The notes beneath the pieces are model-generated. The model saw nothing but the letters and a program-made list of their open reading frames with translations. It had not been told where the DNA came from and did no database searches. Made by a program: the position numbers and the translations under genes. Of a stretch of 64,000 bases of DNA, positions 818-24,108 are shown in pieces. Source of the stretch: Ignisphaera sp. (lineage in GTDB: Archaea; Thermoproteota; Thermoprotei_A; Sulfolobales; Ignisphaeraceae). The stretch spans positions 62,001-126,000 of the forward strand of contig JAVYNU010000005.1 of assembly GCA_038735125.1 (NCBI GenBank), read 5' to 3'. Each line of letters starts with the position of its first letter. Position 1 is the stretch's first letter.

Positions 818-1913
818 TTTTATAATCTGTTTCCCCGATAGCATCTTTCAAAGTGTTATACCTTCTCACAGTAAGCATGGGAGTCTCTTCGCTGATATCC
901 GGGCAAATCTGAGACGATTTACTTTTGTCATTCTTAGCTATGTATATATAACCATTTGTGATATCCCCCAAGTAGACACCACCAACTTTCTTAAAGCCTA
1001 GAAGAACTGAGCCAAAATCTTCGTAGATTTCAGCAATTCCTATAGTAGATGTTGTGAACCTTGGATTAGCCTCAACTACATACATACCACTATCATTCCA
1101 CACAACATCTAATCCTATATAACCTCTGAGCCCATTAATGCAATTAGAAAGCTTTTTGAGTACACCCTCAGCCAAACCTCTATACACTGTATTTCTTATT
1201 GGTAGTATGCCCCCTCTGTACTCAAGTTTATTACCCTTCAATAGTATCAACTGTAAATTAAGACTGTAGAGCTCAACTCTATCATTATTAAAAACAGCTG
1301 ATATACTCCCATGAACACCATCAACATATTCTTGCAGAACTATGCAACCAGTTGGATCACACTCAAAAGCAATTTGAGAATATTTAATAGCGTCATCCAC
1401 GCCCCTAGCGATAAATACACACTCTGAGCCGGCCAACACAACAGGTTTCACAATTAAAGGCATTGTAAAGTCTTTTAAAACTTGTTTAACATCATCTCCT
1501 CTGCATAAAATCCTTGTGTAAGGTACTTTAACACCACATTTATCTAATGTGAGAATAGTTTCATATTTATGAGAAAGTCTCTTAACAACGTCATATGAAG
1601 GACCCAGAAACTTGTTTCCAATTCTCTCAACTGTTTTCACAAGCTCCACTGGAGGTGCTATAACAATTACATTATCAAAATGTACACTCAGTTTGCTAAC
1701 AAACTCAATGTAATCACCCTCAACAACAGCTACTGAGCCTTTAAAACAATTTGAAAGATACTTCGAAACAGTAATGACAATATTTACACCACTTCTCTGA
1801 AGTGCTTTAGCGATTGCTGAGACCATACTATACGCTTCGCCAAGCAAAGACTTATACCTGCTAACACATCCATATGAACTTACAACATATTCTGATAATA
1901 GAATAGATGCCAT
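774..1913 (-). CDS. ATP-grasp ligase, MfnD/COG1821-like (tyramine-glutamate ligase family)
   Basis: ATP-grasp protein of about 379 residues. The N-terminus reads ILLSEYV followed by LLGEAYSMVSAI, the pre-ATP-grasp pattern of COG1821. The core has VKPVVLAGSE as ATP-binding strand and loop, LQEYVDG, and the metal-binding end VVEANPRF. MfnD joins glutamate to tyramine in methanofuran synthesis; the substrate here is inferred only from family and context. The frame is open to 1985, but the extra 24 residues are unlike the family, and a TATA-like element (about 1950-1960, read on the minus strand) lies at the right distance for a transcript starting just before the ATG at 1913, so I prefer that start. 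It is divergent from cooT and convergent with the CofE-like gene. Confidence 0.65.
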   Translation of the reverse strand: MASILLSEYVVSSYGCVSRYKSLLGEAYSMVSAIAKALQRSGVNIVITVSKYLSNCFKGSVAVVEGDYIEFVSKLSVHFDNVIVIAPPVELVKTVERIGNKFLGPSYDVVKRLSHKYETILTLDKCGVKVPYTRILCRGDDVKQVLKDFTMPLIVKPVVLAGSECVFIARGVDDAIKYSQIAFECDPTGCIVLQEYVDGVHGSISAVFNNDRVELYSLNLQLILLKGNKLEYRGGILPIRNTVYRGLAEGVLKKLSNCINGLRGYIGLDVVWNDSGMYVVEANPRFTTSTIGIAEIYEDFGSVLLGFKKVGGVYLGDITNGYIYIAKNDKSKSSQICPDISEETPMLTVRRYNTLKDAIGETDYKIIEKLAYRVDKDLF

Positions 1914-2068
1914 ATAATCACAAAAGTCTAAAACTATGAACAATGAGTTATAAAGCTTTATACCAGGAAAACAATTAGACACCATGTATAGAGGATTTTA
2001 ATATTTGTACTTAAAACTCGATAAAAACTTTAATTTTGAATCGAGCTAAATTTTCCTTGGCGAATCTT

Positions 2069-2263
2069 ATGTGCGAATCAAAGGTTTATGTGAAGGAGGG
2101 TAATGAAACAAAACTTGTTATTGAAGAAGCTATTTCGATGACTCCAAAAAACGGTGGGTATGTATTTATCGATATCTCTGGTAAGAGGTATGAAATAGAT
2201 AATGCTGTTATTGAGAGCATAGATTTTATTGGACATAAGGTTGTGCTTAGAAAGATTAAGTAG
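2069..2263 (+). CDS. cooT: CooT-like nickel-binding CODH accessory protein
   Basis: A 64-residue protein starting MCESKVYV and ending GHKVVLRKIK, with the family's small beta-barrel pattern (KLVIEEA, P.NGGYVFIDISGKR, IESIDFIGHK). In CooT the Cys at position 2 binds Ni(II), and the protein helps load nickel into CO dehydrogenase. A longer frame from TTG at 2036 exists, but the ATG at 2069 puts Cys at residue 2 as the family requires. It is the first gene of a run of same-strand CODH genes, 38 bases before cooC, which strongly supports the role. Confidence 0.8.
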   Translation: MCESKVYVKEGNETKLVIEEAISMTPKNGGYVFIDISGKRYEIDNAVIESIDFIGHKVVLRKIK

Positions 2264-2280
2264 GGATTTGCTACTAAAGG

Positions 2281-2297
2281 AAAAGCCAAAGGCTTTT
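2281..2297 (+). terminator. Hairpin plus T-run between cooT and cooC
   Basis: A perfect 7-bp inverted repeat (AAAAGCC / GGCTTTT) with a 3-base AAA loop is followed at once by TTATT and the cooC ATG at 2302. It lies in the 38-base gap after the cooT stop. It looks like an intrinsic terminator or attenuator, or a structure that controls access to the cooC start, which has no GGTGA-type ribosome binding site. Function is inferred. Confidence 0.35.
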
Positions 2298-2301
2298 TAT
2301 T

Positions 2302-3078
2302 ATGAAGATTGTTGTTGTTGGAAAGGGTGGTGTTGGAAAAACAACTATAGCAGCAACTCTTGCTAGGCTTATTGGAAGAGATGGTTTTAGCGTAGTAGCT
2401 GTTGATGCAGACCCGAGTCTTAACTTAGCTATAGCCATTGGCATTCCAAGAGATGTTGCTGACAAAGCGCCTATTCTATTCGATGAGGAAGAGTTTATAA
2501 AGTCTAGAACCCTTTTACCAGACGGTTTTTTCAGATTAAATCCAAAGGTCGATGATGTTATAGAGAGGTTTGGTATTAAAGGACCCGATAATGTAACTGT
2601 TTTAAAGCTTGGTGAAGTGAAGAAAGGAGGAACAAGATGTCTTTGCCCAGAATATGCATTTTTACGAGCACTACTATCGCATCTTGTTCTCGGCAGAAAA
2701 GATGTGGTGATAATAGATATGGTGGCGGGTTTAGAGCCTATGAGTAGAGGTGCTATTAGAGGTGTTGATCTCGTTTTATCTGTTGTAGAGCCATCGATGA
2801 AATCCCTAGATACTGCATTGAAGATAGAGAAGCTTGCAAAAGATATTGGTGTAAAGAGGCTAGAGGTTATAGCAAATAAGATTAGAAGTATTGAAGAAAT
2901 TGAGAATATCGAGAAGAGTGTAGGTAAGAAGATATTTCATTGGATACCATTTGATGAAGCTATTATTGAAGCCGATTACAATGGGGTTTCACTTCTAGAC
3001 TATAAGCAATCTTCGCCAGCTATCGACTCATTGAAAGAATTAAAAAATAAAATATTGAATATGTTTCATTTAAAATGA
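2302..3078 (+). CDS. cooC: CooC-type nickel-insertion ATPase (copy 1)
   Basis: A 258-residue MinD/ParA-class ATPase. The deviant Walker A motif GKGGVGKTT is at residues 7-15, the switch region VDADPSLN follows, and VVIIDMVAGLEPM is the Walker B region. A Cys-X-Cys pair at residues 113 and 115 (RCLCPE) matches the nickel- or zinc-binding dimer motif of CooC/AcsF. The family couples ATP hydrolysis to nickel insertion into the C-cluster of CODH (or the A-cluster of ACS). It lies between cooT and cdhA on the same strand. A second, divergent copy closes the cluster at 12405, so the two may serve the two different nickel sites. Confidence 0.88.
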   Translation: MKIVVVGKGGVGKTTIAATLARLIGRDGFSVVAVDADPSLNLAIAIGIPRDVADKAPILFDEEEFIKSRTLLPDGFFRLNPKVDDVIERFGIKGPDNVTVLKLGEVKKGGTRCLCPEYAFLRALLSHLVLGRKDVVIIDMVAGLEPMSRGAIRGVDLVLSVVEPSMKSLDTALKIEKLAKDIGVKRLEVIANKIRSIEEIENIEKSVGKKIFHWIPFDEAIIEADYNGVSLLDYKQSSPAIDSLKELKNKILNMFHLK

Positions 3079-3088
3079 GAGGTAAAAG

Positions 3089-3098
3089 CTTAAAAGAT
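3089..3098 (+). promoter_or_regulatory. Putative TATA box of cdhA
   Basis: The sequence gcttaaaaga is centred about 27 bases before position 3120, where a GGTGACG ribosome binding site (3120-3126) begins, followed by the cdhA ATG at 3134. The 55-base gap after cooC therefore holds a plausible promoter for the cdh structural genes in addition to any read-through. Confidence 0.4.
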
Positions 3099-3133
3099 CA
3101 AGGCCATCAAAATTCCTTTGGTGACGTAGTTTT

Positions 3134-5518
3134 ATGAGTGTTCCATTTAAGAACGTGAGATTTAAAATTGATGAAATTAAGACTTCTATTGGAGAGGTTA
3201 AAGGTGTTGATATAAGTATTGGCTATGTTGTTGAGGAATGGGAGGAGCCTCCTGGCCCCACACCATTCCCAACAGTAGCATCTTTGCGCCATTGGGACCA
3301 CACTCTATTGAGACGATACAAACCTCTCTATCTACCATATTGTGATCTTTGTTGTTTGTGTACATATGGAAGATGTGACTTGTCAAGAGGTAAAAGGGGC
3401 TCTTGCGGATTAAATCTATCGGAGCAGCAATCTAGGTTAGTAACACTTGTTTGTGCCGTTGGCGCATCAACCCATGCTAGCCATGCTAGAGAGCTTCTTG
3501 ACAAGCTCAAGAAGGAGTTTGGCGAAGACACTTCCATAGACCTTGGCGGAGAAGTTTATGTGGAGATGCCTATAACAAGACTTGTCACAGGTGTTAAACC
3601 AAAAACTCTTAGGGATTTAGAGATTGTTTTAGACTATGTTGAGAGGCAGATCGTTCAAACGCTTGCCAGTGTTCATACTGGTCAGGAAGGTGATTGGATA
3701 GACTATGAATCTAAGGTTTTACACCTTGGAATGCTGGATCATGTAGCACTTGAGATAGCTGATGTAACCCAAATAGTCTCTCTAGGCTTCCCCAAAGCAG
3801 ATCCTAATGCACCTTTGGTAGACATTGGTATTGGAACTATAGATTCATCTAAACCAGTTATCCTTGTGATAGGCCATAATGTATTGCCATCTACAGCTAT
3901 AATAGATTATCTAGAGGCTATGGGCATTAGAGACAAGGTCGAGGTTTGCGGACTTTGCTGCACAGCCCACGACCTTACAAGATATGAGAAGAAGAGAGCT
4001 AAAATTGTTGGGCCCATATCATGGCAGCTAAGATTTATTAGAACAGGCATCCCAGATGTTGTTGTAATTGATGAGCAATGCATATATACTAACATTCTTG
4101 AGGAGGTTAAGAATATAGGAGCTATACTAATAGCAACATCAGATAAGGCGATGAGAGGACTTCCAGATAGGACCCACGCAGACCCAGACTCCGTTGTTGA
4201 GGAACTTGTCACAGGAAAGATACCAGGTGCACTAATATTAGATGAGGATAAAGCCGCTCAAGTAGCTGTTAAAACAGCTTTGAAAATAGCTCCACAGAGA
4301 GCTAAATATAAATTGAGTTTAATGAACGAGGAAGCTGTTGTAGAGTATGCAAAGAGATGCACAATGTGTAGAAATTGTGAGAGAAACTGTCCTCAAAACC
4401 TCCCAATATCTTCTGCAATGGCTCTGGCGGCAAAAGGTGATTTAACCAAGCTTGCGTCACTCTACCAAAAATGTTTCGCTTGCAGAAGATGTGAATATGA
4501 TTGTCCAAGAAAAATACCAGTGCTAACACTCATGCTAGCCTCTGCAAAGAGAATGTTATTAAATGAGAGGTATAAGGTTAGGGTTGGTAGAGGACCTATA
4601 CAAGACACTGAGATTAGAGCTGTTGGAAGGGATATTGTCCTTGGCACCATACCAGGTGTTGTAGCCTTTGTAGGCTGTGCTAACTGGCCTGATAGCTTTA
4701 ATGATGTTGCTAAGATGGCTAGGGAATTTGCCTCTAGAAGATACATCGTTGTAGCTTCTGGCTGTTCAGCTATGGCAATAGCCATGATGAAGAGTGAGGA
4801 GGACAAGACACCATATGAAGAGTTTTCAGGCATCTTTGAAGCTGGTGGAATTATCAATGTCGGTTCATGTGTTGCAAATGCACATATAGCAGGAGCTGTA
4901 ATAAAAATTGCAAACATATTTGCAAAGTTACCTTTAAGAGCAAACTATGCTGAAATAGCAGACTACATACTCAATAGAGTTGGTGCTGTTGGAGTTGCAT
5001 GGGGTGCTATGAGCCAGAAAGCAGCTGCAATAGCATCAGGTTTCTGGAGGCTAGGTATACCAGTCATAGTTGGTCCTCACGGACTTAAATACAGAAGAAT
5101 GCTTATGGGGGATGAAACAGATGAGGAGAGCTGGGTAGGATACGATGCAATGACTGGTGAGAAGGTTAGGCTAGATCCAGCACCACTACACCTATTCTAT
5201 GCAGCCGAAAGTCTCGAAGAAGCTATGGTTATGGTTCCAAAACTCTGCATAAGACCCGCTGACACCCCGCAGGGGAGAGCAATAAAACTAACAAACTACA
5301 TATCTCTGTACAAACAGTTCTACGGCTCAGATAAACTCCCACCAGATATACACCTGTACATTAGAACCGAAGGGGATATACCAGTAACATATAGAGATGA
5401 GGTTATGGATTATCTCAAAGAAGTTGGGTGGAAAGAGAGAACTGTTGCAGCAAACCCAACACTACTAAGAGATATTGTGGAAAAGTATGAATTGAGAAGA
5501 AAGGGAGTGCCGACTTAG
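3134..5518 (+). CDS. cdhA: Acetyl-CoA decarbonylase/synthase alpha subunit (Ni-Fe-S CO dehydrogenase)
   Basis: A 794-residue archaeal CODH catalytic subunit that interconverts CO2 and CO. A cysteine cluster at about residues 70-91 (CDLCCLC...GRC...GSCG) supplies the B- and D-type Fe-S clusters. C-cluster ligand motifs are seen as GHNV, VCGLCCTAHD, DEQC, FVGCANW, ASGCS and NVGSC. Two ferredoxin-type 4Fe-4S motifs (CTMCRNCERNCP and CFACRRCEYDCP) lie in the middle, as in the archaeal and not the monofunctional bacterial enzyme. Length matches archaeal CdhA (about 780-800). The start has a good GGTGACG site 8 bases upstream. It is followed after 10 bases by cdhB. Confidence 0.97.
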   Translation: MSVPFKNVRFKIDEIKTSIGEVKGVDISIGYVVEEWEEPPGPTPFPTVASLRHWDHTLLRRYKPLYLPYCDLCCLCTYGRCDLSRGKRGSCGLNLSEQQSRLVTLVCAVGASTHASHARELLDKLKKEFGEDTSIDLGGEVYVEMPITRLVTGVKPKTLRDLEIVLDYVERQIVQTLASVHTGQEGDWIDYESKVLHLGMLDHVALEIADVTQIVSLGFPKADPNAPLVDIGIGTIDSSKPVILVIGHNVLPSTAIIDYLEAMGIRDKVEVCGLCCTAHDLTRYEKKRAKIVGPISWQLRFIRTGIPDVVVIDEQCIYTNILEEVKNIGAILIATSDKAMRGLPDRTHADPDSVVEELVTGKIPGALILDEDKAAQVAVKTALKIAPQRAKYKLSLMNEEAVVEYAKRCTMCRNCERNCPQNLPISSAMALAAKGDLTKLASLYQKCFACRRCEYDCPRKIPVLTLMLASAKRMLLNERYKVRVGRGPIQDTEIRAVGRDIVLGTIPGVVAFVGCANWPDSFNDVAKMAREFASRRYIVVASGCSAMAIAMMKSEEDKTPYEEFSGIFEAGGIINVGSCVANAHIAGAVIKIANIFAKLPLRANYAEIADYILNRVGAVGVAWGAMSQKAAAIASGFWRLGIPVIVGPHGLKYRRMLMGDETDEESWVGYDAMTGEKVRLDPAPLHLFYAAESLEEAMVMVPKLCIRPADTPQGRAIKLTNYISLYKQFYGSDKLPPDIHLYIRTEGDIPVTYRDEVMDYLKEVGWKERTVAANPTLLRDIVEKYELRRKGVPT

Positions 5519-5528
5519 GTGACGTAAA

Positions 5529-6065
5529 ATGGCACTTGAGTATTGGCTTAAAGGAGACATACCACCTGGTCCAATAAAAGCTACATTAGTAATGGATCCC
5601 TCTAAAGCAGTTGAAATAATTAGGAAATTCGTGGGTCAACAAGTAATATTGATAGGATCTAACATAGAGGAAATAGAGAAAGCTGTTGGAGACGTCATCA
5701 CACATGTAATTGAAATGGCAAAAGCATTGAAAAGCCCCATCATAACATCAAGCTCTTATGTTGTTAAAAAACTTGATGATAATGGATTCAGAGAATACAA
5801 AATCCTACCTCCTCTAGAAGCCATACAAAAAATATCTAAAGGTCTAATACCATGCAGATTAGCAATTTTCATAGGCTTTAGATATGCCTATGGCTGGCTA
5901 CTTCTAAACTCCATAAAACACTACAAACCAGAAATCCAAACACTATCTCTAGATCCATATGCACAACCAAATGCCACATGGACATTGCCTTCACTACCAC
6001 TTACAATATGGTACAAAAACTTAAATCAACTTATTGAAAACATTAAATCTGTTGCGCAGAAATAA
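5529..6065 (+). CDS. cdhB: Acetyl-CoA decarbonylase/synthase epsilon subunit
   Basis: A 178-residue protein with the DHS-like Rossmann fold pattern of CdhB (PGPIKATLV near the N-terminus, VILIGSNI, LAIFIGFRYAYGW, and a closing PLTIWYKNLNQLI). In archaea this small subunit binds CdhA in the alpha2-epsilon2 CODH component; its exact role is not settled. The ribosome binding site GGTGACG overlaps the cdhA stop codon (TAGGTGACG), implying translational coupling. The position between cdhA and cdhC is the usual archaeal order. Confidence 0.93.
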   Translation: MALEYWLKGDIPPGPIKATLVMDPSKAVEIIRKFVGQQVILIGSNIEEIEKAVGDVITHVIEMAKALKSPIITSSSYVVKKLDDNGFREYKILPPLEAIQKISKGLIPCRLAIFIGFRYAYGWLLLNSIKHYKPEIQTLSLDPYAQPNATWTLPSLPLTIWYKNLNQLIENIKSVAQK

Positions 6066-6089
6066 TTGTGGCTTTAGAGTGTGGTAATT

Positions 6090-7721
6090 ATGTCTAGTAG
6101 CATAGCCCTAAAGATAATTGAGAGAATTGAACTACCTTCCAATATACCAATAAAGATTTTCAAAGTGTCGCCTCCGCCACAAAAAGGGATGTTTTCTGAT
6201 ATACCAGTTGATGTAGGTCCCCAATATGAGGGTCAGAGGGTTAGAGGCCCGGAGATGTTTGTTGAGCTTGGGGGTCCAAAGGTTAAATATAAATTTGAGT
6301 TGTTTTTGGTTAAATCAGTTGAAGAGGTTGAAGATGGAGAGATTGTTGTTGTTGGGCCAGATTTGAATGAGATGAGTGAGGGGAAGAGCTATGAATATGC
6401 AGTTATATTTGAAGCTGCTGGAAGGGGTTTGGAGTCCCAAGCTGAGGGCGTTCTTGAGAGGCGTATCCATGAGTTTAGCAACTATATTCAGGGATATATG
6501 CATCTCAATCAGAGATATGAGATTTGGCTTAGGGTAAGTAAGAGGTCTTATCAAAAAGGCTTGAATTCATTTAGATACATTGGAACAGCTTTATATAGGC
6601 TCTTCAAATCAGCTTTTCCAATAATAGAGAAGCTTAGAATATATTTCATAACAGATGCAAAAGTTGTTGAGATTCTATATCCGCAAGCTATAAAAGTTTA
6701 TGAGGAGAGGGATAGAAGGGCACTAGGGCTTAGAGATGAGGATGTAGACACATTTTATTCATGTAAACTCTGCCAATCATTTGCACCAACACATACATGC
6801 ATAATTACACCGGAAAGACCATCCGCATGTGGAGCTATATCATGGCTCGATGCAAGAGTTGCATCGCAAATAGATCCCAAAGGTCCTATACAGCCTGTGC
6901 CAAAGGGGAGATGCCTAGATCCTGTAGCTGGAGAGTATGAGGGTGTTAATGAAGCTGTTAAAAAGCTTTCTAATGGGGCTATACAGAGGATTAGGCTATA
7001 TTCTTTATTTGAATATCCGCCAACTATATGTGGATGTTTCGAAATAGCAACATTCTACATACCTGAATTAGACGCAGTTGGACTTGTTAATAGAGGCTAT
7101 GGAGGGTTAACACCTATAGGTCTAAGATTTAGTCAAATAGCAGATACTGTTGGAGGTGGTAAGCAGGTTCCAGGATTCCAGGGAATAGGGCTTTTATATC
7201 TTAGAAGTAAAAAGCTTTTCCAAGCAGATGGTGGATGGACGAGAATCGTCTGGATGACCTCAGAACTAAAAGAGCGTGTATTAGATGCCATACCCCCGGA
7301 GCTTAGAGATAAAATAGCTACTGAGAAGGAGGCTAAGACTGTTGACGAACTTAAAAAGTTTCTCATTGAGAAAGGCCATCCAGCAGCAAAGAAGATTCTG
7401 GAGAAGGAGAGGACTGCTGAGAAGAAGATGGAAGAGGAAAAGAAGTCTGCTGAAGTACAGCCCCCACCACAACTCACACAAGTCCAGCCAACACCAACGA
7501 TACAATTACCACAAGTAACACCACAGCCAACACCAGCTGTTGTGGCTCCTGCAAACCTACAAGCTGTAACAATTCCCATGCCAGGTGGAATAACAGTTTC
7601 AGTGACAATTCCAACCCAATTAACACAGCCTAGAGGACCTCCAATAAATGTTGTTTTGAAGGGTGTTAAAATAAGGATTGAGAAGATGGTTATAAAGAGA
7701 GGTGAGGTGGAGAAGAAGTGA
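6090..7721 (+). CDS. cdhC: Acetyl-CoA synthase beta subunit
   Basis: A 543-residue archaeal acetyl-CoA synthase that condenses CO, a corrinoid-bound methyl group and CoA. A-cluster cysteines are visible as CKLCQSF at about residues 225-228, HTC at about 237, and CGC at about 314-316. The CO-channel N-terminal domain of bacterial AcsB is absent, as expected for archaea. The C-terminal third has a charged helix, a Pro/Gln/Thr-rich linker (about 455-490) and a small basic end domain. The ATG at 6090 is preferred over the GTG at 6081 because that GTGGT is itself the likely ribosome binding site. The stop overlaps the cdhD start by four bases. Confidence 0.95.
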   Translation: MSSSIALKIIERIELPSNIPIKIFKVSPPPQKGMFSDIPVDVGPQYEGQRVRGPEMFVELGGPKVKYKFELFLVKSVEEVEDGEIVVVGPDLNEMSEGKSYEYAVIFEAAGRGLESQAEGVLERRIHEFSNYIQGYMHLNQRYEIWLRVSKRSYQKGLNSFRYIGTALYRLFKSAFPIIEKLRIYFITDAKVVEILYPQAIKVYEERDRRALGLRDEDVDTFYSCKLCQSFAPTHTCIITPERPSACGAISWLDARVASQIDPKGPIQPVPKGRCLDPVAGEYEGVNEAVKKLSNGAIQRIRLYSLFEYPPTICGCFEIATFYIPELDAVGLVNRGYGGLTPIGLRFSQIADTVGGGKQVPGFQGIGLLYLRSKKLFQADGGWTRIVWMTSELKERVLDAIPPELRDKIATEKEAKTVDELKKFLIEKGHPAAKKILEKERTAEKKMEEEKKSAEVQPPPQLTQVQPTPTIQLPQVTPQPTPAVVAPANLQAVTIPMPGGITVSVTIPTQLTQPRGPPINVVLKGVKIRIEKMVIKRGEVEKK

Positions 7722-9052
7722 GTAGAGATAGAGATGAATTAAGAAAGAGACAAAATGATGAAGAAGAGTCGAAGAGATATGCAGAGATTGCAGGGCTTTT
7801 AGCAAAAATTGCTGAAGCACTTGAAAAGGGTGTTGTAGAGCTATACAACATAGAGCTTGCATTTGATGAAGTAGAGTTGCAAATTCCATCATCAGCCATA
7901 GAGACGTTACCAATTCCAATCACAATTACGCCACCTCCGCAAAAAGTTGCTGAAGCGAAGCCGGAAACCCAAGCTGCCATAGCTATAGCTAAAACTGTTG
8001 AGATTGTTGGAAAGAAAGTTGTAGAATTGATGAGGATAGGTTTTGAGGAGCCGAAGCCGAATTTTACTGGAAAAGTTGTTGAGGTTAAAATAGGTGCTAC
8101 TAAAAGTGAGGGGGGAACCAGGGAAACATCATTTGTTTTAGGTGGACATGAGCTTCCACCATACTATTATCTCACAGGCTATAAGCCACCACATTTACCA
8201 GCCTTCGGAGGAGACACATTTGATATGAAAATTGGTTTGCCTAGAGCTGTTAGACAGGTTTTTGGAGATGCTTTAGATAATCCAGAGGAGTGGGCTAGGG
8301 TATGGGTCAAAAAGTTTGGTGCAGAAGCTATAGATATTCACCTTGTTAGTACAGATCCCACGCTAAAGAATGCTTCTGCAGAAGAAGCCGTTAAGACAGT
8401 TGATAGGTTTTTGCAAGTAGTTAAAACGCCTATTGTTGTTGGTGGTAGTGGCAATCCAGAAAAAGATATTGAGGTTTTCAACGCTATTGCAAATGCTTTT
8501 CCCAGTGAGGGTTTAGTTATAAACAGTCTAAATCTTGATATGGCGTTAGAGAAGGTTTGTCCAAACATAGCAAAGACAAACGCTGTTGTGATAGATTTCT
8601 CCCCTATGAGTGTTGAGAAAGCTGAGGAGATAAATAGAAAGGTGTATACATGGATACCCAGAAACAGGATATTGCTTGATCTAAACATAGGTGGCATTGG
8701 TTATGGAACAGAATATGGATTTACAACCATGGAGAGATCAAGACTGGCAGCGCTTCTAGGCAATGAGCTACTTCAACACCCATTTAATGTCGGAGCAGCA
8801 AATGCCTGGGGTGCTAGGGAGGCATGGATGACAATGGATCCCTACTGGGGACCTAAAGAGGTTAGAGGATCTCTGTGGGAAACGCTAACATGTGTTATTT
8901 GCCTCCTTGCAGGTGCTGACTACTTCATGGTTCTACACCCACTTACAATGAAGGTTTTGAAGAGTCTTAGAGAATACCTCTTCTCAGATCCAAAGCCAAG
9001 AGACCCCGAAAAGGCTTTGTCATGGCTTTCAACAAAACTTCCCGTGGTGTAG
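7718..9052 (+). CDS. cdhD: Corrinoid/Fe-S protein small subunit (delta)
   Basis: A 444-residue CdhD. The TIM-barrel core carries FVLGGHELPP, TFDMKIGLP, VVGGSGNPEKD, LLDLNIGGIGYG and a long conserved stretch around NVGAANAWGAREAWM. It pairs with CdhE to form the corrinoid protein that carries the methyl group from the tetrahydropterin to acetyl-CoA synthase. The start is GTG inside GTGA, sharing four bases with the cdhC stop, a classical coupled junction. The N-terminal 80 residues are charged and Pro-rich, as in other archaeal CdhD proteins. It ends 4 bases before cdhE. Confidence 0.95.
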   Translation: MSRDRDELRKRQNDEEESKRYAEIAGLLAKIAEALEKGVVELYNIELAFDEVELQIPSSAIETLPIPITITPPPQKVAEAKPETQAAIAIAKTVEIVGKKVVELMRIGFEEPKPNFTGKVVEVKIGATKSEGGTRETSFVLGGHELPPYYYLTGYKPPHLPAFGGDTFDMKIGLPRAVRQVFGDALDNPEEWARVWVKKFGAEAIDIHLVSTDPTLKNASAEEAVKTVDRFLQVVKTPIVVGGSGNPEKDIEVFNAIANAFPSEGLVINSLNLDMALEKVCPNIAKTNAVVIDFSPMSVEKAEEINRKVYTWIPRNRILLDLNIGGIGYGTEYGFTTMERSRLAALLGNELLQHPFNVGAANAWGAREAWMTMDPYWGPKEVRGSLWETLTCVICLLAGADYFMVLHPLTMKVLKSLREYLFSDPKPRDPEKALSWLSTKLPVV

Positions 9053-9056
9053 ATCT

Positions 9057-10499
9057 ATGCCTTGGAGACCTCCAACACCTATAGAAATCTACCAGTTATT
9101 GCCACAAACGAATTGCGGTAAATGTGGAGAGCCAAACTGCATGGCTTTTGCTGTTAAGCTAATAAACTTCGACACCACGTTAGAGCAGTGTCCACCTCTC
9201 ATAGAAGATAAAAGCTATGCTAAGAATCTTGAGAAGCTAAAGGCTCTTCTCTCACCACCTGTAAAAGAAATTGTTTTGAGAAGCCCAAAGAGAGTTGTTA
9301 AGATTGGTGGAGAATATGTTTTGTATAGACATGAGCTAAGATATATGAATCCAACTGCAATAGCGATAGACATTGACGATTCTATGGATAGAGATTCGAT
9401 ACTCAAACGAATTGAAGCTATCGAGAAATTTGAATATGAATATGTTGGTAGAAAGCTTAAGCTAGATCTAATAGCAGTTAGGTCTGTTACCAATGATCCA
9501 AAGCAATTCGCGAAAACAGTTCAGATAGTAGCTGAAAACTCAACACTGCCACTGATCCTCTGTTCCCTAAATCCAACAGTTATTGAAGCTGGCTTCAATG
9601 TTCTTACCCAAGAGCATAGACCTTTGATATATGCAGCAACAAAGGATAATTGGAGGGAGATGGCGGAGTTGGCAAAGAGATATGAAGCTCCACTTGCTAT
9701 TGCATCTCCAGGTGATTTAGACATGTTAGTATCTTTAGCTAAAACACTTAGTGAGGGATTTGGAATAAGTGATCTAGCTCTAGACCCAGGAACGCTCATA
9801 GGTGTTAATGGACTTGCATACACGGTCAAGGCATTTACGTGGCTTAGATACAAAGCTGTTTATGATTTGTGGAAATATGCTGGCTATCCCCTTATAGGCA
9901 CCCCAATATCGGTTTGGTCAAGCCTAGAAGGCGATGTAATGGATAAGATGTGGTGGGAGGCAATATTAGCAACACTACTCATGACCAGGTATGCAGATTT
10001 GTTGATTATGCACTCTATTGATGGCTGGGTTTTGTTGCCACAGGTCATGTGGAGATTCCAGCTATATACAGATCCGAGGAAACCTGTGGCTGTACCATCT
10101 GGTGTTAGAGAGATTGGGAAGCCAGATGAGAAATCGCCTGTTATTGTAACAACAAACTATGCTTTGACATATAGCATTGTTTTAAGTGATATTGAAAAAG
10201 CTAAGGTTAATGCGTGGCTTGTTGTTATAGATACAGAAGGGCTAGCAGTAGATGTCTCGGTTGCTGCAAGAAAGTTTACAGGTGAGAAGGTTGCAGAGGT
10301 TATAAAGTCTTCAGAGCTAGATAAGAAGGTTAGACACAAAGTCTTGATAATACCTGGTAAAGCTGCTAGGGTATCAGGAGATGTTGAAGATGCTACAGGT
10401 TGGAAAGTTGTTGTAGGTCCTGTGGACTCTAGCGAAATAGGTAAATTTATTGAGAAGATGTGGACAGAGAATAAGTTAAAAGAGTTGTTGTCTCAATAA
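9057..10499 (+). CDS. cdhE: Corrinoid/Fe-S protein large subunit (gamma)
   Basis: A 480-residue CdhE. The N-terminal 4Fe-4S domain shows Cys20, Cys23, Cys28 and Cys45 (NCGKCGEPNC...EQCPP), whose cluster reduces the bound cobamide. A central TIM barrel (residues about 90-330) is followed by a C-terminal Rossmann-like cobamide-binding domain from about residue 350. It receives methyl groups and, with CdhD, presents them to CdhC. The gene lies 4 bases after cdhD. The RACo-type activator 40 bases downstream probably repairs its cobalt when oxidised. Confidence 0.95.
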   Translation: MPWRPPTPIEIYQLLPQTNCGKCGEPNCMAFAVKLINFDTTLEQCPPLIEDKSYAKNLEKLKALLSPPVKEIVLRSPKRVVKIGGEYVLYRHELRYMNPTAIAIDIDDSMDRDSILKRIEAIEKFEYEYVGRKLKLDLIAVRSVTNDPKQFAKTVQIVAENSTLPLILCSLNPTVIEAGFNVLTQEHRPLIYAATKDNWREMAELAKRYEAPLAIASPGDLDMLVSLAKTLSEGFGISDLALDPGTLIGVNGLAYTVKAFTWLRYKAVYDLWKYAGYPLIGTPISVWSSLEGDVMDKMWWEAILATLLMTRYADLLIMHSIDGWVLLPQVMWRFQLYTDPRKPVAVPSGVREIGKPDEKSPVIVTTNYALTYSIVLSDIEKAKVNAWLVVIDTEGLAVDVSVAARKFTGEKVAEVIKSSELDKKVRHKVLIIPGKAARVSGDVEDATGWKVVVGPVDSSEIGKFIEKMWTENKLKELLSQ

Positions 10500-10539
10500 A
10501 ATTCTTGACCTTTTGAAACACAGTTGGTGATATGCCTCG

Positions 10540-12387
10540 GTGAGCAAAGAGAAAGTTAAGGTATTTTTTCCACAATTTAATATTGTTGCAGAAGCCTCTA
10601 TAGGCTCAACGATAATTGAGATTGTGCAGAAGGTTGGTATAGGGATTAGGAGTGTTTGTGGAGGCAGGGGCTTCTGCGGGAAATGCAAAGTTTTTGTAAA
10701 AGGTAAAGTTGATTTCGAGTTAACAGATAAAACACTTCTTTCCGAGGATGAGATTAGTAAAGGATATGTATTAGCATGTTTGGCGAGGGTTGTTGATGAT
10801 ATAGAGGTTTTCATACCTCCTGAAACACAGTTTAGAAAAGCCAAACTTTTATCCCACGTTCTTTTACCGAAAATTGATTTAGAGCCTGTTATAGTTGCAA
10901 AAACCATTTCAGACTATTTTGACATTGTCAAGTTAAGTTCTTTCTATAAAATGGATTCGAATTTGATTAAAAAAGCAAATGATGTTTTAGAGAGATTTGG
11001 TAAAGCAATAGCCTTTATAGACCCTATGCACAATTCTGTAATTGACGTTAGAGAAAGTAATACTTTTTACGGTATTGCTGTAGATATTGGAACAACAAAA
11101 ATTGTTGTAGCTTTAATAGATTTAGCATCTGGTAATGTAGTCGATGTTGACTCGGAATTCAATAAGCAGATGATGTATGGCGAAGACATAGTCTCCCGTA
11201 TTTCATATGCTTTAAGCGGTGAAAGGCTTAAAGAACTTCAAAAAGCTGTTGTAGAGACAATCAATATATTGATAGATGGACTATGTAAAAGACATAACAT
11301 AGACAAGAATAGTATATTTCATGTTTCTGTAGCGGGCAATACAGCGATGACACATCTATTTATTGGCTTAAATCCACAACCATTGATACAATCATTTAAA
11401 GCTTCTGTAAAAATAGATCCAAAACCATATATATTAAAAGCTTTTGAAATAGGGTTGAATGTCAATAGAAATGCCCTTGTCTATGTATTGCCATGTTCTG
11501 GGAGATTCCTTGGTGGAGATGTTGTAGGAGATGTCATTACAGCAAATATTCATCTCAGAGATGAGCCGGCTCTTCTAATAGATATTGGAACAAATACAGA
11601 GGTTGTTATGGGCTGTAAGCACTGGTTTATGGGTACAACAGCACCTGCTGGACCAGCTTTTGAGGGCTGGGGGCTTAGATGTGGTGTTAGAGCTGTTCAA
11701 GGAGCCATAGAAAGTGTTGAAATAGATCCAAAAACTTTGAGGGCTAGATATAGGGTTATAGGCGATGTGAAGCCTATTGGCATATGCGGTTCTGGCTACA
11801 TTGATATAGTGGCGCAACTTTTTATAAATGGTGTTATAGATGCTCAAGGCAAATTCTACAGAGATATAGATTCTGAATATGTTAGAAAAGGTACTGATGG
11901 CTATGAATATGTGATTGTACCTGCTGCAGAATCTGGTACTGGAAGAGATATTGTTGTCACGGAAAAAGACATTTATAATATTATAGATGCTAAATCGTCT
12001 GTTTGTGCAGCAATATCAATCCTTATGAAGAGAATGCAATTAGATGTGCACAAAATTAAAAGTGTTTTCATATGTGGAGCATTTGGAAGATACCTCAACA
12101 TAGATAGCGCAATTGCTATTGGGATGATACCAGAGTTCCCAAATGCAGAAATTGTGTATATAGGCAATGGCTCTCTTGGAGGAGCAATACTAACAACACT
12201 ATCTAGAGGCTATGTGGAAGCAGCTGAGAAGATAGCTAGAAACTTTGCAACTATAGAACTTATGCTAGATCCATATTTTATGGAGGAATACGAAGCTGGC
12301 TTTGTACTGCCAGGAAAGCAGGAGTTGTTCCCAACCTGGTGGAGGAGGAGCAAGATGATAAAGCCGTGGAGAAAAACTACTATGTAG
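10540..12387 (+). CDS. RACo-type reductive activator of corrinoid proteins (2Fe-2S ferredoxin + ASKHA ATPase, DUF4445)
   Basis: A 615-residue fusion. Residues 1-85 are a 2Fe-2S ferredoxin domain with Cys40, Cys46, Cys49 and Cys80 (CGGRGFCGKC...ACLARV). A linker leads to an ASKHA ATPase: phosphate-1 motif AVDIGTTKIVVALID, then VSVAGNTAMTH, LLIDIGTNTE and VFICGAFGRYL. Bacterial RACo uses ATP to reduce inactive Co(II) corrinoid protein of the acetyl-CoA pathway to Co(I). The gene follows cdhE directly, so CdhDE is the likely client. Start is GTG at 10540 with ggtgat ten bases upstream; the nearby ATG (10532) meets a stop after three codons. Confidence 0.88.
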   Translation: MSKEKVKVFFPQFNIVAEASIGSTIIEIVQKVGIGIRSVCGGRGFCGKCKVFVKGKVDFELTDKTLLSEDEISKGYVLACLARVVDDIEVFIPPETQFRKAKLLSHVLLPKIDLEPVIVAKTISDYFDIVKLSSFYKMDSNLIKKANDVLERFGKAIAFIDPMHNSVIDVRESNTFYGIAVDIGTTKIVVALIDLASGNVVDVDSEFNKQMMYGEDIVSRISYALSGERLKELQKAVVETINILIDGLCKRHNIDKNSIFHVSVAGNTAMTHLFIGLNPQPLIQSFKASVKIDPKPYILKAFEIGLNVNRNALVYVLPCSGRFLGGDVVGDVITANIHLRDEPALLIDIGTNTEVVMGCKHWFMGTTAPAGPAFEGWGLRCGVRAVQGAIESVEIDPKTLRARYRVIGDVKPIGICGSGYIDIVAQLFINGVIDAQGKFYRDIDSEYVRKGTDGYEYVIVPAAESGTGRDIVVTEKDIYNIIDAKSSVCAAISILMKRMQLDVHKIKSVFICGAFGRYLNIDSAIAIGMIPEFPNAEIVYIGNGSLGGAILTTLSRGYVEAAEKIARNFATIELMLDPYFMEEYEAGFVLPGKQELFPTWWRRSKMIKPWRKTTM

Positions 12388-12404
12388 ATATTTGGTGGTA
12401 ATCG

Positions 12405-13181
12405 ATGAGAAGACCTATTATAGCATCTATCTCAGGGAAGGGAGGATCTGGAAAAACAACATTAACAGCTCTGCTACTAAAGATACTCATAGAAAATGTG
12501 AGTAACGACTATATATTGGTTGTTGATGCAGATCCTGCAACAAATCTCTCAGATGTTTTAGGATTGAGGATAGTTAAAACAATTGGGGATGTTGTTGAGG
12601 AGTTTAGAAAGAAATTAGATGAGCTTACATTAACAGGGTTTGACAAAGCTTCAACACTTAACTACTGGATTATAAGAGACTGCTTAGTTGAGACAGAATA
12701 TTTTGATTTTATAGCTATGGGGAGAGGTGAGGGGGAGGGATGCTATTGCTATGTAAACTCAGTTTTAACCACAATTTTAACGAATCTAATAAATAATTAT
12801 AGTGTTGTATTAATGGATATGGAGGCAGGTTTGGAACATCTGAATAGAAGAGTTGATAGACATGTAAATACATTGATAGTTGTTGTAGACCCATCAGCAA
12901 TGAGTATAAAAACAGCTGAGAGGATAATGGCCGTGGCTAAAGAGGTTGGAATAAATCCAGAGAAATTCTATGTTGTTGGAAATAGGCTAACAGAGGACAT
13001 GGCTAAAAAAGTGGAGAGTAATCTTAGTAGGTTGGGCTACGAATATGCTGGAACTATACCAGAGGACGATATGATTCTTAGACATAGCATAGAAGGTAGA
13101 CCCCTATTAGAGTTGCCTAAAAACAGCAAGGCGGTTGTGGCGGCAAGGTCCATTGCTAGAAAAATTGGTTTTGTAGATTAA
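12405..13181 (+). CDS. CooC/AcsF-like nickel-insertion ATPase (copy 2)
   Basis: A 258-residue MinD-class ATPase with deviant Walker A motif SGKGGSGKTT at residues 10-19, VDADPATN, and VVLMDMEAGLEHL as Walker B. A Cys-X-Cys pair again falls at residues 113 and 115 (GCYCYVN), aligned with CooC copy 1, so nickel maturation is the likely role. It lies 17 bases after the RACo gene and is the last gene of the block. It is clearly diverged from copy 1 outside the motifs, so a split of labour (CODH C-cluster versus ACS A-cluster) is plausible but unproven. Confidence 0.85.
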   Translation: MRRPIIASISGKGGSGKTTLTALLLKILIENVSNDYILVVDADPATNLSDVLGLRIVKTIGDVVEEFRKKLDELTLTGFDKASTLNYWIIRDCLVETEYFDFIAMGRGEGEGCYCYVNSVLTTILTNLINNYSVVLMDMEAGLEHLNRRVDRHVNTLIVVVDPSAMSIKTAERIMAVAKEVGINPEKFYVVGNRLTEDMAKKVESNLSRLGYEYAGTIPEDDMILRHSIEGRPLLELPKNSKAVVAARSIARKIGFVD

Positions 13182-13317
13182 AACATCACAAGTTTTCATG
13201 TAAAATTTATTTCATTATCTAAATATGAATGAGTATAACAAAAGCTGTTAATAAAATGACAAAACTTTATTTGCTGTAACAAACATAAAAATGCAACTCA
13301 CTTTTTAATGTTAAAAA

Positions 13318-13325
13318 TTTATATA
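13318..13325 (+). promoter_or_regulatory. TATA box for a leaderless MetF-like transcript
   Basis: TTTATATA is centred 28 bases before the GTG at 13350, the spacing of archaeal TATA box to transcription start. The mRNA would therefore begin at or next to the start codon. This separates the MetF-like gene from the upstream operon; the 168-base gap (13182-13349) is otherwise AT-rich and empty. Confidence 0.6.
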
Positions 13326-13349
13326 GTGGAATCATTGCTATAGCGTTCG

Positions 13350-14120
13350 GTGAGATATGTGAAGATAATACATGAATTTGTACCAACAAGAAAGTTTCTC
13401 CAAATGGCTGAAGAGACTAAGGATTTTGTTGATGGCTGGAATATAACAGATAGTGCTGCTGGTGTACCAGCTCCCAGCGGAACTGCTGTTGGCTGTGTAT
13501 TGAAGGTTAAATACCCAGATAAAATTGTTATACCAATCTTCGTATTGAATTATAAAGGACCTGTGGAGGTCGGGGCTTTGGCTTTAGCTGCTGATGCTGT
13601 TGGTCTCGATGGACTTGTTCTCACCTTTGGTGATGAGCCTAAGTTTGGCGAGCCATTAGCAGGGAGATATTGGAGGAGGTCGGAGGAGGCAAGAGACTTT
13701 CTAAGGAAGGAAATAAAGTTGAAGCGTGTCAAGCTTGGCTGCCTATTATCCCCTAGGCCTGTGAGAGATAGGTATGGAGCGAAAGAATTTGGCTTTGAAG
13801 ATATGGTTAACAGGGTTAAAACTGGATGGGATTTTGCCTTCTTTATGAGGTTAACTGACGAGACTTTCCCAGTACTAGAGAAGGTCTCGACCGAGCTGAA
13901 AAAGTTGGGCACACCGCTTTATGCATATTTCTTAATAAAAACAGCTAGAAATGCTGAGACACTTGCAAGAATTGGGTGGAGCCCAACAACATCAATAGAA
14001 AATGCTTTAGCCTATGCAGAAAGGCTTGAGAATATTGTTGATGGGATTATAGCAACTTGTGCAGGAGACTATGAGGGGGACAGAGAACTATTAAAACTGT
14101 TGAGTAAACTCAGGAAATGA
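13350..14120 (+). CDS. MetF-like methylene-tetrahydropterin reductase (MTHFR superfamily)
   Basis: A 256-residue protein starting VRYVKIIHEFVPTRKF. The pattern ITDSAAGVPAPSG, LAADAVGLDGLVLTFGDEPKFG, KLGCLLSPRP and GWDFAFFMRL follows the TIM-barrel order of MTHFR-like proteins, with LTFGDEPK where the family has its TGDxPK motif. It is not of the F420-dependent Mer type. In a CODH/ACS organism such a protein would make the methyl-tetrahydropterin that feeds CdhDE. It lies directly after the CODH/ACS operon with its own leaderless promoter. The enzyme class is moderately sure; the pterin (H4MPT or H4F) and the electron donor are unknown. Confidence 0.6.
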   Translation: MRYVKIIHEFVPTRKFLQMAEETKDFVDGWNITDSAAGVPAPSGTAVGCVLKVKYPDKIVIPIFVLNYKGPVEVGALALAADAVGLDGLVLTFGDEPKFGEPLAGRYWRRSEEARDFLRKEIKLKRVKLGCLLSPRPVRDRYGAKEFGFEDMVNRVKTGWDFAFFMRLTDETFPVLEKVSTELKKLGTPLYAYFLIKTARNAETLARIGWSPTTSIENALAYAERLENIVDGIIATCAGDYEGDRELLKLLSKLRK

Positions 14121-14209: not shown

Positions 14210-16330
14210 TTATTCTAGGACAATTCTAGCGTCAACTACTTTACATCCTTTACCTTCTTCGTATACAAATATCGGATTTAGATCCATTTCAGCTATTTCT
14301 GGTATGTCCATGACCAGTCTACTTGCCCTAACCAAGACATTGACAATAGCCTCTATATCTGCTGGCTTCTCTCCTCTGAAGCCCTTTAATAGGCGATATG
14401 ACTTTGTCTCCATAATCATTTCCCTTGCTTCATAGCTTGTTATAGGCGCTAAACTAAATGAAACATCCCTGAAGACCTCTGTGTATATTCCTCCAAGGCC
14501 AAACATTATCATGTGTCCAAATTGCGGATCTTTTACCGCACCAACTATGACCTCTCTTCCTGCTGGAGCCATGGTCTGCACAACCACTCCGTATATTTGT
14601 GCTTGTGGAGCATTTTTCTTCACATTTGCCATTATTGCCCTGAACGCTTCTCTAACATCGCTTTCCGACTTGAGGTTAAGTTTTACTCCACCGATATCAG
14701 ATTTGTGTATAATGTCTGGGGAGGCTATCTTCAATACAACTGGATATCCAAGCTCATTGGCAATGGCAACAGCCTCGTCTTCTGACCTGGCAAGCCTTGT
14801 TGTTGCAACGGGTATGCCATAGTAGCTCACCAGCTCCTTGGCCTCTACCTCTAGCAGAACCTTCCTTCCCTCGCTTCTAACACTCTCTATTAAAGCCCGT
14901 GCAGACTTCTCATCTATGTCTGGCAGATTGGCCAGTTCACTCACAGATTTTGCTATCTCCATTACCCTCTCTCTCATAACTCTATATCTATTCATTATAG
15001 CTAAAGCCGTTACAGCCCTATCATTAGATTCATACACAGGTATCCCAGCAGCTTTGAGCATTTCAATAGCTTTCTCAACCCTTGGCCCTCCTATGAATGC
15101 CGCTAGAATTGGTTTCTGCGGATACCTCTTATGCATGTTTATTATGACCTCAGCTGTTTTCTCAGGTTCTGTAACAACTTGTGGTGTGAGTATGACTATC
15201 GCGGCATCTACATTCGGATCTTTTAGAACAGCGTCTAAGGCAACTTCATATCTATCAGACCTAGCATCGCCTATAACATCAATTGGATTGTTTAGTGCTG
15301 CCATTGGCGGTAGCTTGGATCTCAGATACTCTACTGTTTGCGGTGATAGTTGGGCTAGTTTGAGGCCTGACAAAGCAACCAGATCTGCAGTCATAACACC
15401 TGGTCCACCAGCATTGGTTACAATAGCTATTCTATCACCTGGCAAGCTCTCCATTAAGGAGAATGCTATTGCTGAGTCAAAGAACTCTATAGGCTCTGAT
15501 ACTAGCACTATACCAGCTTTCTTCATAGCTGTTTGCACAGCTAGTGGCCCGCCAGCCATAGACCCTGTGTGGCTTAGTGCTGCTCTTGCCCCTGCCTCGG
15601 TCATCCCACCCTTGATGAGTAGTATAGGCTTTTTCTTCACAACTTCAGATGCTACTTCTATGAACTTCTTTGGATTTGCTATAGACTCGAGATAGAGTAG
15701 AATAACTTTTGTTGCTGGATCCTCTGCTAGATACTCTATAAAGTCAATTTCGTTAAGATCTGCCTTGTTACCAAGACTAATAATCTTTGAGAATCCTATT
15801 CCAGTTTTAACAGACCAGTCGATTATTGCAGCTAGATAAGCTCCGCTCTGGGAAACGAATGCTATACCTCCTTTTGGAGGTGTTAGACCAAATGATGCAT
15901 TTAATGGTGTGTGGGTATCTATTACACCTAGTATGTTTGGGCCCAGCACTCTTATGCCATATTTTTTGGCTATCTCAACAACTCTCTTCTCCCTCTCAAC
16001 ACCTTCTCCACCGATCTCCTTGAACCCCGCAGAGATTATTACAGCATATTTAACGCCCTTCTTACCACACTCTTCTAGAGCACTTGGAACTGCTGGTGCT
16101 GGTATAACGAAAACTGCTTCATCAACCTCATCCGGAATGTCAAGCACCGATTTATATGCTTTTAACCCCATTATCTGATCGGCATGTGGATTCACCGGAT
16201 ATACCTTTCCTTTGTATCCGCTTTCAACAATATTCTTTAAAACTGCATATCCAAGCTTTGTCGGCTCTCTTGAAGCGCCTATTACCGCAATCGATCTTGG
16301 TCTAAATAAAAGTTCTAACCCTTCCTTCAT
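14210..16330 (-). CDS. ADP-forming acetate/acyl-CoA synthetase, fused alpha-beta
   Basis: About 706 residues. An N-terminal CoA-binding domain (FRPRSIAVIGASREPTKLG), two succinyl-CoA-ligase domains with the phosphohistidine site SHTGSMAGG, and a C-terminal ATP-grasp domain (YPVVLKIASPDIIHKSDIGG). It converts acyl-CoA, ADP and phosphate to the acid, CoA and ATP, the main substrate-level ATP step of peptide-fermenting archaea. The alpha and beta parts, separate in Pyrococcus, are fused here. Start: the frame opens with TTG at 16357, but the TATA element at about 16367-16374 implies a transcript starting near 16343, so ATG at 16330 (before LELLFRPRS) is preferred. It faces the CODH operon tail to tail and could convert its acetyl-CoA to acetate. 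Confidence 0.92.
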   Translation of the reverse strand: MKEGLELLFRPRSIAVIGASREPTKLGYAVLKNIVESGYKGKVYPVNPHADQIMGLKAYKSVLDIPDEVDEAVFVIPAPAVPSALEECGKKGVKYAVIISAGFKEIGGEGVEREKRVVEIAKKYGIRVLGPNILGVIDTHTPLNASFGLTPPKGGIAFVSQSGAYLAAIIDWSVKTGIGFSKIISLGNKADLNEIDFIEYLAEDPATKVILLYLESIANPKKFIEVASEVVKKKPILLIKGGMTEAGARAALSHTGSMAGGPLAVQTAMKKAGIVLVSEPIEFFDSAIAFSLMESLPGDRIAIVTNAGGPGVMTADLVALSGLKLAQLSPQTVEYLRSKLPPMAALNNPIDVIGDARSDRYEVALDAVLKDPNVDAAIVILTPQVVTEPEKTAEVIINMHKRYPQKPILAAFIGGPRVEKAIEMLKAAGIPVYESNDRAVTALAIMNRYRVMRERVMEIAKSVSELANLPDIDEKSARALIESVRSEGRKVLLEVEAKELVSYYGIPVATTRLARSEDEAVAIANELGYPVVLKIASPDIIHKSDIGGVKLNLKSESDVREAFRAIMANVKKNAPQAQIYGVVVQTMAPAGREVIVGAVKDPQFGHMIMFGLGGIYTEVFRDVSFSLAPITSYEAREMIMETKSYRLLKGFRGEKPADIEAIVNVLVRASRLVMDIPEIAEMDLNPIFVYEEGKGCKVVDARIVLE

Positions 16331-16381
16331 TGTACTTTTACCTATACTTGGATACAATAAGAGAGGTTTATAAATATATTA

Positions 16382-22124: not shown

Positions 22125-22219
22125 ATGCAATCCCTATATGGAGTTCTTCGACGATTCTAGCGTTATAAATTCTAATAACAGGATTAAAATGTACGCATGT
22201 CGGGGAAGTAAATTAGCTG

Positions 22220-23970: not shown

Positions 23971-24108
23971 ATGGAGATAAAGTATACAAATAGATTTTGT
24001 GAACCAACTAAGAGAAACAGTGTTAAAGTAAAATCAATGTCTGAGGATAACAGCAACCAACTTGTCAATAAACCAAGACACATTCTTAAGGTGTTCTCAA
24101 ATGCCTGA
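23971..24108 (+). CDS. Possible 45-residue protein overlapping paaK1
   Basis: An ATG-to-TGA frame (MEIKYTNRFCEPTKRNS...) lies behind a GGTGA site (23954-23958) and a TATA-like tttttaaacc (about 23919-23928). It overlaps the start of paaK1 by eight bases, as coupled genes do. A 5-codon frame starting at ATG 23963 fits the same ribosome binding site better, so this may be leader RNA instead. No motif is recognised. Confidence 0.28.
   Translation: MEIKYTNRFCEPTKRNSVKVKSMSEDNSNQLVNKPRHILKVFSNA

Follow-up and report, generated by a model that had tools for sequence, protein, structure and literature searches.

Does a hyperthermophilic crenarchaeon carry a carbon monoxide dehydrogenase/acetyl-CoA synthase (CODH/ACS) as part of a complete Wood-Ljungdahl pathway, and, if so, which enzyme carries out the last reduction of its methyl branch? 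These questions are raised by a locus of Ignisphaera sp. that lies in a stretch of 64,000 nucleotides (hereafter the window), which represents bases 62001-126000 of contig 5 in a genome of 1.81 Mb, 12 contigs and 99.9% completeness. In this study, gene content, synteny, mutual exclusion of gene sets and gene phylogeny were investigated in the window, in its genome and in a comparison sample of 11 genomes of the genus and 229 genomes of the class. We observed that ten genes of the window, from cooT to a gene at 13350-14120 that we call MetF-like, form an island, and the best explanation, which we consider very likely, is that this island supplies the carbonyl and acetyl-CoA part of an archaeal Wood-Ljungdahl pathway that is complete in this hyperthermophilic Ignisphaera. 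It also appears likely, taken as one joint claim, that the protein encoded at 13350-14120 founds a family of methylene-tetrahydromethanopterin (methylene-H4MPT) reductases in Ignisphaera, some Desulfurococcaceae and Bathyarchaeia, which would stand in for the Mer that many archaea lack, and that within Ignisphaera and close relatives it works in a module, consisting of MtdB and the reductase with F420 synthesis lost, that would take the methyl branch of the pathway off coenzyme F420.

The CODH/ACS island and its metal sites

An earlier note on this DNA, made from the letters of the window, had placed cooT, two cooC genes, cdhABCDE, a RACo-type activator and a MetF-like gene on one strand within 12 kb, and all ten genes were recovered at exactly these positions (Table 1). 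From cooT through the second cooC (2069-13181), neighbouring genes are spaced by -4 to 55 bases, and a gap of 168 bases separates the second cooC from the MetF-like gene. The description of the catalytic subunits as full length and in possession of their metal ligands was likewise borne out. CdhA aligned nearly end to end with the solved archaeal CdhA chains 8riu, 9c0q and 3cf4 and displays all the C-cluster ligand motifs, while CdhC, aligned with the solved archaeal beta chain 9c0s, holds all six A-cluster cysteines (228, 231, 240, 250, 317 and 319), which are invariant in the alignment; the epsilon subunit is divergent but exceeds its Pfam cut-off. Within the RACo-type protein, the 2Fe-2S cysteines are present, and the 2Fe-2S, middle and C-terminal ASKHA domains were all matched. 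The order cooT-cooC-cdhABCDE-RACo-cooC was also seen in other Ignisphaera genomes, partly in fragmented contigs, and a chance arrangement is excluded because this gene order is kept. With all five subunits in one cluster and the ligands of both the C- and A-clusters in place, the island is predicted to encode a complete archaeal CODH/ACS, accompanied by service genes for nickel and corrinoid, and its host is a true crenarchaeon.

The host is regarded as a crenarchaeon and not a methanogen, since it belongs to the genus Ignisphaera and mcrA, the marker of methanogens and methanotrophs, was detected in none of the 18 related genomes searched, including that of the host. A methanogen origin of the contig was ruled out on the same count. 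The order of the host appears to comprise the families to be expected of Sulfolobales as GTDB uses the name. The suggestion that the host is unusual stands to this extent, but the accompanying view that the pathway belongs chiefly to methanogens and Archaeoglobales was too narrow, as archaeal CODH/ACS is common in Bathyarchaeia and also present in Asgard and other lineages.

Table 1. Position, strand and supporting evidence for the genes of the CODH/ACS island and for neighbouring genes of the window
Feature	Coordinates	Strand	Evidence
cooT, nickel-binding CODH accessory protein, Cys2 present	2069..2263	+	PF10133 55 bits, E 1e-14
cooC-type ATPase 1, P-loop, CLC motif	2302..3078	+	CbiA/NifH-like P-loop; CxC at 113
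cdhA, CODH/ACS alpha, Ni-Fe-S C-cluster	3134..5518	+	TIGR00314 1150 bits (cut-off 781)
cdhB, CODH/ACS epsilon, divergent	5529..6065	+	PF02552 34 bits (cut-off 21); TIGR00315 37 bits (below cut-off of 101)
cdhC, acetyl-CoA synthase beta, A-cluster	6081..7721	+	TIGR00316 612 bits (cut-off 356)
cdhD, corrinoid protein delta	7718..9052	+	TIGR00381 317 bits (cut-off 253)
cdhE, corrinoid/iron-sulfur protein gamma	9057..10499	+	NF003195 568 bits (cut-off 306); PF04060 FeS motif
RACo/AcsV-type reductive activator of corrinoid protein, 2Fe-2S domain	10540..12387	+	PF14574, PF17651, PF00111
cooC-type ATPase 2, P-loop, CYC motif	12405..13181	+	P-loop family match; CxC motif
Probable methylene-H4MPT reductase, uncurated family (MetF-like)	13350..14120	+	predicted fold and genome context
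Divergent CofE-like protein (F420-0:gamma-glutamyl ligase family)	11..817	+	PF01996 37.7 bits; synteny kept in G003 and G006
Divergent ATP-grasp protein, MfnD-like (methanofuran synthesis)	774..1985	-	best NCBIfam model MfnD 70 bits, below cut-off; ATP-grasp_3
Fused ADP-forming acyl-CoA synthetase	14210..16357	-	closest model 4-hydroxybutyrate-CoA ligase, below cut-off

Distribution and phylogeny of CODH/ACS

CdhC was present in 8 of the 11 genus genomes and in 15 of the 229 class genomes, spread over four families, and was not found in G005 or in G009, which we take to be the type strain of I. aggregans, each about 99% complete. By the proteins compared, G005 is the nearest relative of the host (96% identity in acyl-CoA synthetase and in adenylate kinase), and it retains the order adk-acd-MetF-like with no CODH/ACS island behind. 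This absence looks like a loss, with gain elsewhere as an alternative.

Phylogeny of CdhA and CdhC, which the earlier note had proposed as a check, placed all sequences of the order in one clade with a support of 100 in both trees. The neighbours of this clade are Geothermarchaeota (Scotarchaeum) and, for CdhC, also Baldrarchaeota, followed by Bathyarchaeota, while Methanosarcinales and Archaeoglobi stand apart; these trees lend no support to a recent acquisition from a methanogen or bacterium. In the CdhC tree, the sequences of G133 and G155, which represent two further families of the order, nest with two Ignisphaera sequences, suggesting that CODH/ACS may have been exchanged within the order. 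As a separate observation, G044 of the same class harbors a bacterial-type ACS of 733 aa in place of the archaeal type (L056:5597-11354), at a locus with CdhD, CdhE, CooC and a CooT-like gene, no archaeal cdhA nearby, and adjoining Vhu-like hydrogenase and HdrA genes; G044 also possesses an H4MPT island of its own, which includes Mtd.

The methyl branch in the host genome

Enzymes of the one-carbon (C1) carrier, which the earlier note had advised looking for, are all found in the genome, namely Fwd, Ftr, Mch, a methylene-H4MPT dehydrogenase and the probable reductase. Contig 8 of the host carries the run MtdB-Ftr-FwdDB (a fusion)-FwdA-FwdC-Mch, behind which stand MfnE-like and MfnF-like genes of methanofuran synthesis, and the dehydrogenase is of the MtdB type by PF09176. 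This C1 island rules out a lone CODH/ACS without a methyl branch. Searches of the host genome detected no F420-type Mtd, no Mer (nothing above the TIGR03555 family cut-off) and no cofD, a gene of F420 synthesis. All the CODH-positive genomes examined have Mch, and the two near-complete Ignisphaera genomes without CODH lack it, so that CODH/ACS and the methyl branch seem to have been gained or lost together. The host is thus predicted to possess the whole archaeal Wood-Ljungdahl pathway, in a form whose methyl branch is a variant and ends in a putative reductase. Concerning the genes of this branch, FwdD and FwdB are fused in one protein of 577 aa (L045:5534-7267), with similar lengths in the other C1 islands read, and two genomes of the F420 type hold a second, diverged Mch (G008:C3:96008-97000 and G121:C19:612-1601).

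According to the proposed pathway, Fwd would convert CO2 to formyl-methanofuran, Ftr would move the formyl group to H4MPT, Mch would close the ring, and MtdB, a dehydrogenase of the NAD(P) type, would carry out the reduction to methylene-H4MPT. The 13350-14120 protein would then reduce the methylene to the methyl group in place of the F420-dependent Mer, after which CdhDE would hand the methyl group to CdhC, to be joined there with CoA and with CO from CdhA. CooT and the CooC ATPases would load nickel, and RACo would reactivate the corrinoid protein. The likely net use is facultative CO2 fixation and/or an electron sink that makes acetyl-CoA with H2 or ferredoxin; what is said here of the pathway's activity, direction and electron donor, and of the role of the 13350-14120 protein, is prediction.

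Genome context of the putative reductase

Genome context is stronger evidence than fold for the function of the 13350-14120 protein. The exclusion count covered 13 informative CODH-positive genomes of the order, with the fragmentary G012 left out. Four of the 13 (G007, G008, G120 and G121) harbor Mtd, Mer and cofD and are devoid of the MetF-like gene, whereas the other nine possess the MetF-like gene, eight of them together with MtdB, and display Mtd, Mer and cofD in no case. The absence of cofD from the genomes with the MetF-like gene was predicted before the search was run.

The MetF-like gene adjoins mtdB on the same strand in G004, G010, G133 and G155, and its family is common elsewhere in the phylum. 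It stands beside CODH/ACS in the genomes L206, where it occupies 9129-9857, L209 and L213, which we regard as kin of Bathyarchaeia because the CdhC of L213 and the CdhA of L206 share 73-75% identity with named Bathyarchaeota, and in G454 it is directly followed by mtd. Given that the gene has such neighbours even in distant lineages, the family in general probably reduces methylene-H4MPT, and the 13350-14120 protein is probably the methylene-H4MPT reductase that has been reported as missing in several archaea. Since F420 would not be made in the genomes lacking cofD, the donor there would be other than F420, and NAD(P)H is the most likely one; in Bathyarchaeia, F420 may serve as the donor.

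Sequence and predicted structure of the putative reductase

The earlier note had called this protein a MetF-like reductase; the gene is present and a barrel is predicted, but it is not a recognised MetF. Eleven family members matched none of the methylenetetrahydrofolate reductase (MTHFR) families in Pfam up to an E-value of 10 and gave no Pfam match of note, no NCBIfam model matched the family, and a profile of 21 members found no related solved structure by sequence. MetF identity by sequence was rejected, as Pfam, NCBIfam, the PDB profile search and hhalign all remained without significance, and the name MetF-like rests on the predicted fold and the context, not on any sequence model.

Modelling by AlphaFold with 21 homologues gave a confident barrel (predicted local distance difference test 90.9, predicted template modelling score 0.89). 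Among solved structures, the model came closest to Mer, to MTHFR and to further barrels of F420/luciferase type, with Z of about 18 over about 230 residues. With Foldseek alone, many tryptophan synthase alpha chains rank high, and for this reason the predicted fold is taken as supporting evidence only. Two acidic residues, Glu9 where strand 1 ends and Asp95 following strand 4, are conserved in 28 family members and match positions A and D of a published comparison, in which Mer, MTHFR and Mfr share a catalytic Glu and a pterin-binding Asp (PMC11094777).

Energy genes and the acyl-CoA synthetase

The host harbors a cluster for a group 3b type NAD(P) [NiFe] hydrogenase as well as a group 4 hydrogenase, Mrp-linked, in which both nickel-binding NiFe motifs are present. 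In G001 the group 4 cluster immediately precedes mtdB-ftr-fwd-mch, in G003 it adjoins these genes, and in G008 it adjoins CODH/ACS. In the host, the C1 island is followed by an NfnAB-like pair. The hydrogenases and the NfnAB-like pair fit a CO2 reduction that would be driven by H2 or ferredoxin; all steps are reversible, and the sequence agrees with the synthesis of acetyl-CoA by the pathway as well as with its oxidation.

The acyl-CoA synthetase next to the island had been taken in the earlier note, in combination with the island, as a hint of acetate formation from C1 units with ATP gain, or of the reverse, an argument that we had to give up. Its orthologue is kept in G005, which has neither CODH/ACS nor Mch, ruling it out as a pathway-specific member, and because of this retention and of its closeness to a 4-hydroxybutyrate-CoA ligase model it provides no argument for acetogenesis in particular. 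A protein with DRTGG and AAA_26 domains, resembling the N-terminal half of phosphate acetyltransferase, was noticed beside the acyl-CoA synthetase in the CODH-positive G003, G004, G006, G007, G010 and G133 (L012:899-1972, L200:12820-13905 and L201:3155-4228), and is not in the window genome.

Weighing the alternative explanations

Several points weigh against our reading of the 13350-14120 protein. Clean as the exclusion pattern is, few independent switches underlie it, the CdhC tree requiring at least two between the MetF-like gene and Mer. The family profile compared by hhalign with six bacterial MetF gave no significant result, although this non-significant comparison sets Asp95 opposite the aspartate of the RGD motif in MetF, and barrels of many functions score close to the model. 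In the Bathyarchaeia-like genomes, the gene also lies beside a true cofE and once beside cofD, and a donor other than F420 is not general. The gene is also present in the CODH-negative G005 and I. aggregans, where its predicted role is another one, in I. aggregans perhaps methyl supply via an adjacent MtrH-like protein. Furthermore, the genomes behind this reading and behind that of the pathway are metagenome-assembled genomes (MAGs). The occurrence without CODH/ACS and the want of a significant sequence match to MTHFR or Mer are what one would expect if the protein were an unrelated TIM-barrel enzyme, there by coincidence, with another protein as the methylene reductase of these species. We consider this improbable in view of the clean exclusion against Mer, Mtd and CofD, the location of the gene next to mtdB, mtd or CODH/ACS in lineages far apart, and the predicted fold.

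Concerning the pathway as a whole, the same enzymes might run in reverse, so that acetyl-CoA from peptides or sugars would be split and oxidised to CO2 and the electrons passed to sulfur compounds or protons, in an Archaeoglobus-like manner. Every step being reversible, such a use agrees with the peptide-fermentation-like genes read from translations in the window (an indolepyruvate-oxidoreductase-like pair at 27085-29555 and PaaK-like ligases), and other Ignisphaera MAGs have been predicted to reduce sulfur and polysulfide (PMC9789041). The hydrogenases in or adjoining the C1 clusters speak against it, though they are compatible with either direction, and we regard the reverse use as rather unlikely. 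It is very improbable, in our view, that the pathway is only partial, with C1 units drawn from serine or glycine and CODH/ACS making or breaking acetyl-CoA for assimilation, with no net reduction of CO2 via Fwd. The persistence of MetF-like and MtrH-like genes in CODH-less Ignisphaera does indicate that a methyl-pterin metabolism without CO2 reduction is possible; against a partial pathway, however, the CODH-positive genomes with a C1 island read from end to end have the full set of Fwd, Ftr and Mch, and the occurrence of Mch follows that of CODH/ACS.

Neighbouring genes

Just upstream of the window lie genes for an MtrH-like methyltransferase and for MfnB-like, HisA-like and MptN-like proteins. 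As the genome lacks cofD, the CofE-like protein at the start of the window may act on a pterin or furan cofactor, which it would glutamylate instead of F420, and the MfnD-like gene stays beside the island in G003 and G006. Further downstream, at 21027-22130, the window encodes a URO-D/MtaA-CmuA-like methyltransferase, of which G001 has a copy with 68% identity (L017:17664-18776) at a distance of about 4 kb from its CODH island. This methyltransferase could be a further methyl entry point. The PaaK-like ligases at 24062-25408 and 29558-30865, on opposite strands, display blocks of 100% nucleotide identity alternating with blocks of 50-80%, a pattern of either gene conversion or assembly chimera.

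Comparison with known systems

To our knowledge, the sole cultured species of Ignisphaera is a heterotroph. With reference to the literature, among archaea other than methanogens CODH/ACS pathways have been described in Bathyarchaeia, Korarchaeia and Asgard lineages (PMC7886697, PMC10667645), an NAD-type methylene-H4MPT dehydrogenase is known in Bathyarchaeia (PMC7886697), and two families of hot-spring Bathyarchaeia were reported without Mer, needing "an alternative and unknown complex" (PMC8407382). Ignisphaera MAGs from hot springs have been labelled heterotrophic or fermentative in a study whose markers were CODH/ACS together with the folate enzyme Fhs (PMC8579995), and for other Ignisphaera MAGs only sulfur reduction was predicted (PMC9789041). 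No description of CODH/ACS or of the pathway in Ignisphaera was found in the literature searched, mostly outside subscription journals, which is weak evidence of absence. Our data present a known kind of pathway in a lineage for which no report was found, with a variant methyl branch. The presence of the whole H4MPT Wood-Ljungdahl pathway in a crenarchaeon that is hyperthermophilic extends the known range of this pathway, and Ignisphaera adds a lineage to the debate over its age and losses; the most valuable lead is the unnamed family of putative reductases.

Compared with the archaeal CdhABCDE of Bathyarchaeia, Geothermarchaeota, Methanosarcina and Archaeoglobus, the island harbors the same five subunits and metal clusters, and differs in its Sulfolobales-type host, Ignisphaera, and in the cooT, two cooC and 2Fe-2S RACo genes built into the run. 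That RACo shares the 2Fe-2S, middle and ASKHA domains with RACo/AcsV of acetogens, while reaching 467 bits against an AcsV cut-off of 800. With the reductive acetogenesis of Bathyarchaeia (PMC7886697), the host shares Fwd, Ftr, Mch, a bacterial-type NAD(P) methylene-H4MPT dehydrogenase, CODH/ACS and a membrane hydrogenase; where that study treats a missing Mer as lost CO2 reduction, another protein family probably fills the step in Ignisphaera. In its predicted barrel, with a Glu where strand 1 ends and an Asp following strand 4, the putative reductase resembles the flavin-independent Mfr of mycobacteria, MTHFR and Mer (PMC11094777), without significant sequence similarity to them. The switch from Mer to MetF proposed for ANME-1, a group of anaerobic methanotrophic archaea (PMC9012536), would likewise put a non-F420 barrel enzyme in place of Mer on H4MPT. 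The MetF of ANME-1 is a recognised MetF beside metV (PMC9012536), whereas the 13350-14120 family matches no model of Pfam or NCBIfam, and metV was not noted beside it.

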